From Branchiostoma floridae (lineage: Eukaryota > Chordata > Leptocardii > Amphioxiformes > Branchiostomatidae), in assembly GCF_000003815.2 (NCBI RefSeq), contig NC_049993.1, forward strand, positions 16,574,897 to 16,638,896: a stretch of DNA of 64,000 nt. Reading direction: 5' to 3'. The position numbers and the translations under genes were made by a program. The notes beneath the pieces are model-generated. The model saw only the letters and a program-made list of their open reading frames with translations, did no database searches and was not told the DNA's origin. Below are positions 40,901-43,394 of the stretch, one piece after another (position 1 is the stretch's first letter; the number at the start of each line of letters is the position of its first letter).

Positions 40901-43394
40901 GGGAAATGCACACAGCCAGCCTGTAATAAACGTATTGAGTCACATGTGGAAAATGCACACATCATATAACAAACATACTGAGTCACATGTGGAAAATGCA
41001 CACTGCCTGTAACAAACATACTGAGTCACATGTGGAAAATGCACACAGCCTGTAACAAACATACTGAGTCACATGTCGGAAATGCCCACAGAAAGCACGT
41101 ACCGGGGACACATGTGGGAAATGCACAGCAAAAATTACTGATGAAGATACCTTCATCACTCAAGACACTAGAAGGGACACTTGACCTAACATATTTCAAA
41201 AGACTCAATGCTACAGACAGATTTGCACATTTATTTAGTTGTCAGAACTCCCATAATGCAAAAATAGGCAAATACATCAAAGACTGCTTTGCTATTAGAA
41301 AGAATACTGAAGCTAATGATTAGCCTACTTCATTATGATACGACATGAATGAATTATGCATATTAGCCATTATGATACTACATGAATGAATTATGCATAT
41401 TAGCCCTTATTGTTATGTTAAATACGATGTTAAGCTTTATCCTATACCTCCATTTTGTACTGTATGTAATAGTTGTTGCCATACTTTGTACCATGTACAA
41501 TTGTCGTGCAATAAAGTTCTCTCCCTAACTCAGGTGAGTGGAAGATAGGTTTTTCATTTAATTATGTTACTTACAAAGTGTACTCTGTAGAGCACCCATA
41601 GAGTGTGATATTACTTTCAAAGCCACTGGACTCTGTAGAGCGTGATACTCACAAAGCCACTGGACTTTTGCGGGGCTCTGTAGAGAGCCCATAGAGCATC
41701 CTGGTTGTTTCTGAGGCGTTTGTTTGTTCATTTGTTTGATACTTACGAAGCAGCCCGCCATGACTCATAACAGCGCCCATACAGTGTCCTGGTCAGTTTT
41801 GAAGTGTTTGGTTGTTAGATACTTACGAAGCCGCCCTCCATGACTCGGTACAGTGCCCGTAGAGCATCCTGGTCGTTGTTAGAGAAGTGAAACCCGACGG
41901 TGCGAGAGTTGCGGAAGAGTGGGCCCAGCGGCACGAGCAGTTGCTGCGGAATCGGCTGCATCATCAGCTTACTGGGCCACTTGTCTGCTTGGCTGGGGAC
42001 AAACATGTGAGCTTTTATAGTTACAAACGTGTTAGCTCGCATAGTCAAAACATGTCAGCCAGTATGGCACAGGTGTAAGGTACAGGTCAGGTACAGGTGT
42101 ATTTTTAGGTACAGGTGTAAGGTACAGATCAGGTACAGGTGTATTTTTAGGTACAGGTGTAAGGTACAGATCAGGTACAGGTGTATTTTTAGGTACAGGT
42201 GTAAGGTACAGATCAGGTACAGGTGTAATTTTAGGTACAGGTGTAAGGTACAGGTGTAAGGTACAGATCAGGTACAGGTGTAATTTTAGGTACAGGTGTA
42301 AGGTACAGATCAGGTACAGGTGTATAGTTAAGTACTTACAGAGTCTCTCCTGGCTGGCTGGATACCTGACAGGCCAGTGACCTGTTAACCTTCTGTGGAA
42401 GGTCGCTCGGATTGTTCTTGGGCTAATAGGGGGTAAACCAGAATTGGTCAAAATGGGGTCAAACTAACAAGAACTCTCATAAGTTAGCATGGGTATGGTC
42501 AATTTTCTTGTGTTTGTAACTAGGGGTGGGTACCAGTGCAGGTTTGGACCTGAACCTGGACCTGGTTTCAATATGTGAGAACTTTTGAATGGACGATACT
42601 CAAAACAATGGTCCATTTGCAACAAAGAAATCTGTTTTGTGGAGTATTCGACTACCGCTAGCGTTTTACTCACTCCTTAAAAGTAACTATTTGTAAGATA
42701 AGGTAACAGTTCTGTAAAAGATTATAGACATTTTGACGTTATCTGGACACTGACAGACATTCAGGAAGGATAATTCAAAACAACTTACTGGCACTTCCTG
42801 CCATTCCAAGGCCCCTTTCCAGATAGGAACCCTTGTCTGATTTCCTGCCTGCTGAGACTGCATCTGCACAGGAGCTGGGGCGGCTCGGGGGCCTTGCTGC
42901 ATGCTTGTCTGCATCGGCTGGAAAAAATGTTCATATTGACTAGCAGGAACTCAAGCAAGTAGACAGTTGTCCCGCAGAAACACAAACACGTGCAGGTGTG
43001 TTCAGGTTTGCCTTACCTGTGCAGGTGTGCCTTACCTATGCAGGTGTGTGCAGGGGTGCCCTACCTGTGCAGGTGTGCCCTACCAGTGCAGGTGTGCCCT
43101 ACCTGTGTAGTTGTGCCTTACCTATGCAGGTGTTTGCAGGTGTGCTTTACCAGTGCAGGTGTGCTTTACCCATGCAGGTGCGCCATTGCCATACCTGTGC
43201 CAGCATGTGCAGGTGTGCCTTGCCTATGCAAGTGTGCCTTGCCTGTGCAGGTTTTCCTTACCTGTGCAGGTATGTCTTACCTGTGCAGGTTTGGGAGGTG
43301 CTTGAGGCTGCCAGCTTCCCTGTTGCTGTTGTCCTGTGGTGGGAGCAGCTCTCAGCAGGTGGGAAGGTCCTCTTGAAGGGGGAGGGGTGGGGGT
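37921..43394 (-). CDS. MED25: Mediator subunit 25, C-terminal part (ACID domain and Q-rich tail)
   Basis: Nine exons on the minus strand, phases all matching: 43281-43394, 42789-42917, 42340-42422, 41827-41992, 40738-40920, 39866-39979, 39285-39374, 38574-38732 and 37921-38094, giving 403 residues to a TGA. MED25 is a Mediator subunit contacted by transcriptional activators. A Pro/Gln linker leads into the ACID activator-binding domain: [73 protein letters not shown] and [20 protein letters not shown]. Gln-rich exons and a short acidic end ([12 protein letters not shown]) follow, as in vertebrate MED25. The N-terminal VWA and SD1 domains that tether it to Mediator were not found to the right, where TRIM fragments begin within 60 bases. 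The locus may therefore be 5'-truncated or encode an ACID-only protein reminiscent of PTOV1. Six of its introns contain tandem repeats, several built from its own splice junctions. Confidence 0.9.
38106..38375. repeat. Minisatellite, 13-14 bp units, in MED25 last intron
   Basis: About 18 units of the type AGCACCTAACCATC, with variants (TGCCTAACC, ACACCTATT). It starts close to the acceptor of the last MED25 exon (38094). No resemblance to exon sequence was noted. Confidence 0.8.
38400..38573. repeat. 32-bp minisatellite reiterating a MED25 splice donor
   Basis: Adjoins the donor of exon 38574-38732 (CAACAG/GTAAGCAATAACAATCC, minus strand). About five units follow, each containing CTCAGCAACAG then GTACCCAATAGCAATCC or GGCAGCCAATAGCAATCC. 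The exon's last bases plus the donor are therefore copied into the intron; two units keep AACAG/GTA. Confidence 0.75.
38935..39250. repeat. 24-bp minisatellite carrying CCAAT motifs
   Basis: Roughly 13 units of the type AGCTGATTGGCTGTGGAGAG plus GTGTT, with variants (AAAATGATTGG). Every unit contains ATTGG, i.e. CCAAT in minus orientation, commonly as AGCCAATCAGCT. The adjacent MED25 exon contains CAGCTGATTGG, so the array may have grown from exon sequence. Confidence 0.8.
39511..39845. mobile_element. hAT-like MITE, copy 2
   Basis: Starts CAGGGCTCGAAATACC and ends in CCCTG, flanked by GGTTA on both sides (39506-39510, 39846-39850). It is similar over its whole length to the element at 36859-37191 (shared CTGGGTTTTATACA, GATGTAGGTGTGTATGGATT). 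It lies in a MED25 intron. Confidence 0.8.
40921..41110. repeat. About 44-bp repeats copying a MED25 splice acceptor and exon start
   Basis: On the minus strand the true junction is TTTATTACAG/GCTGGCTGTGTGCATTTC (exon from 40920). Upstream, about five units repeat the same order: TGTGTGCATTTTCCACATGT, GACTCAGTATGTTTGTTACA and G/GCTGTGTGC. At least three units keep GTTACAG as a potential acceptor. The exon-derived part encodes [12 protein letters not shown] peptides in some copies. Confidence 0.85.
41125..41535 (+). mobile_element. LINE 3' fragment in MED25 intron
   Basis: The plus strand encodes [20 protein letters not shown] and [14 protein letters not shown] then a stop, a typical LINE C-terminus, followed by an AT-rich tail with AATAAA near 41511. 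It is inserted next to the acceptor repeats, opposite to MED25 orientation. Confidence 0.55.
41565..41826. repeat. Partial duplications of a MED25 exon end with its donor
   Basis: On the minus strand, the end of the exon finishing at 41827 (CTACGGGCACTGTACCGAG, TCATGGAGGGCGGCTTC/GTAAGTAT) is followed by three to four decayed copies: GACACTGTATGGGCGCTG with ATGGCGGGCTGCTTC/GTAAGTAT at about 41745-41800, then shorter ones ending GGCTTTG/TGAGTAT and CTTTG/TAAGTAA. A GT remains at the same place in several. Confidence 0.75.
42060..42335. repeat. 42-bp minisatellite next to a MED25 splice donor
   Basis: About six units of AGGTACAGGTGTAAGGTACA followed by GATCAGGTACAGGTGTATTT. It begins within a few bases of the donor of exon 42340-42422. 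The unit is built from the shorter word GGTACAG and shows no clear exon content. Confidence 0.85.
43000..43280. repeat. 19-bp minisatellite of tandem splice donors in MED25
   Basis: Minus-strand unit GTAAGGCACACCTGCACAG. It starts exactly at the donor of exon 43281-43394 (CCTGCACAG/GTAAG) and runs for about 12 further units. Each reproduces CCTGCACAG/GTAAG or a close variant (GTAGGG, GTAAAG, GCAAGG, GTATGG). Some units contain an extra CACACCTGCA insertion. Confidence 0.9.

Follow-up and report, generated by a model that had tools for sequence, protein, structure and literature searches.

A minisatellite with copies of the exon end and 5' splice site in an intron of amphioxus MED25

Background

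The 'mirages' of amphioxus Adh3 were reportedly the subject of work by Canestro et al. in 2002. The term denotes tandem repeats that lie across exon-intron boundaries; in the available text of PMC3087553 they are found at 5' and 3' boundaries of Adh3 and of globin genes, with Adh3 units of 10-72 bp, and show length instability. AG/GT signals occur in many, but not all, of the copies, and RT-PCR suggests that splicing is normal (PMC3087553, PMC3902484, as far as their accessible parts go). Boundary repeats in PGBD5 and troponin C are added by PMC3902484, while the accessible part of a paper on huntingtin (PMC2206037) describes tandem repeats in that gene and makes no mention of boundary copies. 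We found no genome-wide survey of amphioxus boundary repeats in the literature, as judged by titles and the beginnings of abstracts, and the only match for amphioxus together with MED25 concerns, in the portion available, PRMT genes.

Results and discussion

The MED25 gene and its exons

The window analysed here is a 64,000-nt stretch of Branchiostoma floridae DNA. Its minus strand carries a MED25 gene, as an earlier note on this DNA had proposed, and a single open frame runs through the nine joined exons (A to I). Exons A to E, when joined, match the Pfam family Med25 (PF11232, 4e-49) and MED25 chains in PDB (3e-60); exons F to I were located from splice signals and frame alone. The exons and the intron of main concern are as follows.

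43281..43394 (-): MED25 exon A, a P/Q-rich linker (..QAPPKPAQ) with the end CCTGCACAG/GTAAGA; gene model, Pfam and PDB matches
42789..42917 (-): MED25 exon B, start of the Med25 PTOV domain; Pfam and PDB matches
42918..43280 (-): intron A-B, 363 nt, or 99 nt if the last copy of the donor is used

Upstream on the minus strand, a Pfam scan of 43405-48904 and 52700-62200 gave no match to the VWA domain of MED25 (48905-52699 lies outside the scan). The absence of this half of the protein may reflect a long intron, a split gene or a misjoin. RING, B-box and NHL domains are encoded in 43405-48904 (-), where the VWA half might be expected, and on the plus strand a long open frame at 46209-47264 matches the reverse transcriptase family RVT_1 (1e-18) and presumably belongs to a retrotransposon. 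A 30-bp repeat lies across the MED25 stop codon and the start of the 3' UTR (37886-37943, -).

An array of donor-like sites behind exon A

TRF places an array at 42999-43290, with a period of 19, 16.5 copies and 71% match, and gives a second row at 42991-43180. Combined with a scan for donors, this yields the following feature.

42991..43290 (-): minisatellite of mostly 19-bp units, comprising the last 9-10 nt of exon A, the real donor and 12 donor-like copies; TRF and donor scan
Donor +1 positions (-): real donor 43280; copies 43261, 43242 (GC), 43223 (GC), 43194, 43169, 43150, 43121, 43102, 43083, 43064, 43035 and 43016

The earlier note had counted about 13 tandem 5' splice sites, and we confirm the array: 13 donors stand in register, the real one and 12 copies, at offsets of 0, 19, 38, 57, 86, 111, 130, 159, 178, 197, 216, 245 and 264 nt. 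Eleven of these have GT and two GC, and eight of the 13 read AG/GT; a further six GT or GC sites, which are out of register and weaker (5 of 9 U1 positions), were excluded from the 13. Some particulars of the first description need correction. A dozen donor-like sites do follow the real one, but they are 19 nt apart in only eight of the 12 spacings (29 nt in three and 25 nt in one). The array does not start exactly at the exon end, as had been thought, but includes the last 9-10 exon bases, and the span 43000-43394 first given to it does contain the array but takes in exon A (43394-43281) as well.

Eight GT sites agree with U1 at 7 or more of 9 positions, against a shuffle mean of 0.29, and this number was reached in none of 2000 shuffles. 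Pairing with U1 is calculated at -11.5 kcal/mol for copies +19 and +264 and at -11.0 kcal/mol for the real donor, and on a donor frequency matrix 10 of the 12 copies equal or exceed the weakest of the real donors of exons A-H. When donor A was compared with its own intron, the copy score was 26, the maximum among shuffles being 18 (0 of 100 shuffles). The spacing of the array at this locus recurs at no other place among the 26 exact matches of CCTGCACAGGTAAG that were listed. Donor columns of the unit vary about as much as other columns (16 of 117 versus 12 of 130), so neither decay nor upkeep of the decoys is visible.

On the opposite strand of the array there are three sites, against eight, when 7 of 9 positions are required; with 6 of 9 there are 12, against 10. 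The unit is nearly palindromic, with a CAGGT core on both strands, and part of the donor signal is therefore this core. The antisense CAGGT cores, together with CACCTG in the units, could also be read as DNA or RNA binding sites, either an E-box cluster (CACCTG/CAGGTG) or extra U1 sites acting against premature polyadenylation; of 43 array units, 5 contain CAGGTG (mean of 0.6 in shuffled units), although five was reached in at least 1 of 300 shuffles. We hold a binding-site function to be highly improbable. It is scarcely credible that the array is an assembly artefact. A single assembly stands behind it, and the repeat number of PGBD5 differed between two versions of a lancelet genome, although re-examined reads confirmed the original sequence (PMC3902484, available text), but the MED25 units differ in sequence and spacing in ways that assembly error would hardly invent, and clean coding sequence lies on either side.

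Minisatellite-like tandem duplication (here with a 19-bp period), a unit that spans the boundary and AG/GT in many of the copies are all features of the published 'mirage' class, and we file the array as a further member of it. Its short, tandem, boundary-spanning units are like those of Adh3, which is a different gene and one for which both length and somatic instability are reported (PMC3087553, available text). In the globin genes BflGb6 and BflGb9 and in PGBD5, 5' or 3' exon boundaries are likewise repeated in tandem together with splice signals, but according to the accessible text of PMC3087553 and PMC3902484 the units there measure 60-160 bp and number at most seven, whereas those of MED25 are mostly 19 bp long and bring 13 donors. 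The introns of VCBP3 contain partial copies of neighbouring exons with canonical splice sites, and the MED25 intron, too, has copies of exon parts with splice sites; what is available of PMC2632668 does not describe them as a minisatellite. Human and mouse tandem donors (PMC2423196, in part) are likewise adjacent 5' splice sites in competition, but they extend the exon by 3-6 nt, whereas in MED25 repeat expansion has spread 13 sites over 264 nt, with spacings (19, 25 and 29 nt) outside the mammalian type. Tandem units with AG/GT also occur where introns are gained through duplicated AGGT (accessible part of PMC3443670), but the MED25 array lies within an existing intron.

Reading frame of the copies and choice of donor

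It had been supposed that every third site would keep the reading frame. This does not hold: five of the 12 copies preserve the frame of exon A, every one of them behind an in-frame stop codon, and the other seven shift the frame.

43224..43226 (-): in-frame TAG directly before copy +57 (offsets +54 to +56)

Five of the frame-shifting copies also lie behind this TAG, and for the two that precede it, +19 and +38, the shifted frames end at stops within exons C and D. All 12 copies are thus unproductive, ending in premature stops, and intact MED25 can be made from the first donor only. Such a set of premature stops, with two copies stronger than the real donor, would suit a regulated poison switch, in which downstream donors tune the level of MED25 through nonsense-mediated decay and the number of units is the dial. 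We consider this very unlikely, as a similar arrangement is found in unrelated genes (see below) and published mirages reportedly leave splicing undisturbed (PMC3087553, PMC3902484, available text).

The array is, in our judgement, probably a neutral mirage, that is, a minisatellite that duplicated the exon-intron boundary while splicing was kept at the exon-adjacent site. We infer its origin, the donor in use and its neutrality as follows. About 19 bp across the end of exon A and the 5' splice site would have been duplicated in tandem, and the array would have grown into the intron through slippage or unequal exchange, at little cost there. The exon-adjacent donor would normally be chosen, most likely through recognition of the exon as a whole (exon definition). 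If a copy were used now and then, the resulting mRNA would contain a premature stop and be degraded, and the array may in this way be tolerated as nearly neutral DNA.

How a donor is chosen among many near-identical sites is a long-standing question, and the MED25 array is a natural test of it: several copies are as strong as the real donor but differ in position, and the intron goes from 363 nt with the first donor to 99 nt with the last copy. These lengths fall on either side of the point at which intron definition gives way to exon definition, which PMC9225289 puts at 200-250 nt from measurements in systems other than lancelet. In the accessible part of that paper, the downstream 5' splice site was preferred in most events of each of the four intron classes, and short introns favour the 5' splice site closest to the acceptor. 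Under this rule one would expect the last copy, also the stronger site, to be chosen, and this counts against use of the exon-adjacent donor unless the rule is overridden by exon definition or by signals in the exon. The argument from exon definition needs a long intron upstream of exon A; the exon preceding A was not found. We rejected the idea that the real donor is specially exposed in the RNA, as in the predicted fold from exon A to exon B it is unpaired at 0.34, within the range of the copies (0.11-0.60).

Copies of other exon boundaries in the window

Each exon boundary was scored against its own intron, with 100 dinucleotide shuffles apiece; 16 boundaries of MED25 were tested, together with 11 in SMC2, a PIF1-like helicase and a DnaJ gene (for two helicase donors the intron end was fixed by length, without a known acceptor). 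We found strong copies at four of the 16 MED25 boundaries, namely donor A, donor D, acceptor E and donor H, and at one of the 11 others, the acceptor of SMC2 exon 4 (joined SMC2 exons 3-4 match SMC2 in PDB, 6e-46). Besides the array behind exon A, the copies are these.

41644..41794 (-): end of exon D and its donor, present in two further, diverged copies; identities 56/70 and 47/66, donors GTAAGT and GTGAGT
40946..41127 (-): array of 43-bp units that repeat the exon E acceptor and the first part of the exon (AGCVHFPH..); TRF and boundary test
38418..38567 (-): 32-bp array from donor H, with copies degraded to GTACCC/GCAGCC; TRF and boundary test
59288..59467 (+): in SMC2 intron 3, a pair of copies of the acceptor of exon 4, polypyrimidine tract included

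At six of the 16 MED25 boundaries no shuffle out of 100 equalled or exceeded the observed score. Two of these, acceptor D and donor F (score 12 each, 0 of 100), were rejected as boundary copies: the match of donor F falls on no donor and that of acceptor D stops short of the splice site.

The exon tail copied at donor D encodes protein that is conserved in human MED25, and the direction of copying can therefore be read there; the tail of exon A (KPAQ) is not conserved in human MED25, so at exon A it cannot be read. MED25 intron D-E is duplicated at both of its ends, with the donor copies at 41644-41794 and the acceptor copies at 40946-41127. The donor copies come after the real donor and the acceptor copies before the real acceptor. 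Exon definition would fit both choices; a rule by which the first transcribed site wins would fit the donor but not the acceptor, and proximity across the intron would fit neither.

Arrays are concentrated in MED25, with 317 array bases per kb against 5 in the rest of the window and 86 in a systematic 80-kb sample from contigs C1-C4. All seven strong arrays of the window (score of 100 or more) are in MED25, as are 13 of its 21 arrays overall. One further array, of 42-bp units in intron C-D (42069-42324), has donor-like sites in the antisense direction only (10 versus 0 at 6 or more of 9).

Does the boundary seed the array?

The exon boundary itself had been named as the apparent seed of the array. 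We regard this as plausible, on mixed evidence: donor words are in excess across the genome, but within MED25 boundaries are not favoured over introns. In a stronger version, tandem duplications would arise preferentially at boundaries (for example through breaks linked to transcription or splicing), so that the boundary caused the array; this we consider unlikely. The strong copies at 4 of 16 MED25 and 1 of 11 other boundaries speak for it. When positions within MED25 were compared, however, a tandem copy was found at 5 of 17 boundaries, 200 of 431 intron positions and 23 of 117 exon positions, which is no enrichment of boundaries over introns. Taken together, all boundaries (6 of 29) compared with all tested positions of the window give P = 0.057 at a cut-off of 14, P = 0.07 at 16 and P = 0.43 at 18.

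We also searched the genome (513,431,437 bp in 431 contigs) for short words in tandem triples; the resulting counts are lower bounds, and as the places overlap they count copies and not events. The donor word CAGGTAAG was found at at least 870 such places among 27,256 occurrences (3.2%), against at least 123 of 21,164 for control word AGGACATG and at least 137 of 23,860 for GTACAGGA (0.6% each); for GAATGGAC there were at least 2 places among 17,430 occurrences. The donor word is thus 5.5-fold above the two control words, an excess that favours seeding at boundaries. These rates need to be read with one mobile element in mind. Among the 100 donor triples listed, 38 lie, by our own count, in one dispersed element and the other 62 make up 10 arrays; without the element the rate falls to about 2.0%, if the listed triples are typical, and the excess to about 3.4-fold. 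An apparent excess of several hundred-fold, obtained with reversed words as the control (2 and 0 places), was abandoned in favour of the values from these fairer words. Two more results tell against boundaries as the cause: CAGGTG, which is not a strong donor core, is as frequent as CAGGTA (5 of 43 array units each), and none of the 22 arrays in the systematic 80-kb sample has a donor word. In the dispersed element, CAGGTAAG is repeated in tandem with gaps of 27 and 8 bases (for example at C2:9774364-9774930).

One could go further and propose that exon boundaries are hot spots of minisatellite birth, with splice sites copied time and again into arrays of which the productive member is always exon-adjacent, so that the arrays form a large natural experiment in which exon definition decides among equal splice sites, and not donor strength or intron proximity. 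To us this generalisation is decidedly doubtful.

Donor arrays at other genes

We inspected 13 arrays elsewhere in the genome, 10 from the listed donor triples and three others. All were chosen for their donor words and hence cannot measure the rate at which donors decay. Four of the 13 plainly begin at the ends of coding exons, in an ALDH1A3-like, a TRPA1-like, a TPR and a cysteine-rich receptor-like gene. In the ALDH1A3-like and TRPA1-like genes the exon tail was copied with the donor (protein matches 7e-16 and 4e-11), the units including 19 and 27 nt of exon, respectively. The best PDB match of the TPR exon tail is an engineered TPR protein (2e-12), with OGT at 7e-9. Across the six arrays that were measured, the unit includes 19-46 nt ahead of the first donor. 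Of six exon-tail peptides compared with Pfam, three (L040, L041 and L050) gave no match; L050, the one of these also compared with PDB, was matched there. For L042 the TPR matches fell below the Pfam cut-off, as did most of those for L045, where Ephrin_rec_like lay above it. For L039, L048, L049 and others, only array-like sequence was found within 160 nt upstream.

Together with the genome-wide counts, the MED25 array suggests that the 'mirage' class, which the available text of PMC3087553 and PMC3902484 applies to a few genes, is much larger. An extreme example is L042 (G000:C1:1831600-1840000), where 62 donor-like sites lie in and around an array of units of about 35 bp, which follows a TPR-coding exon ending ..RNLGQVYR.
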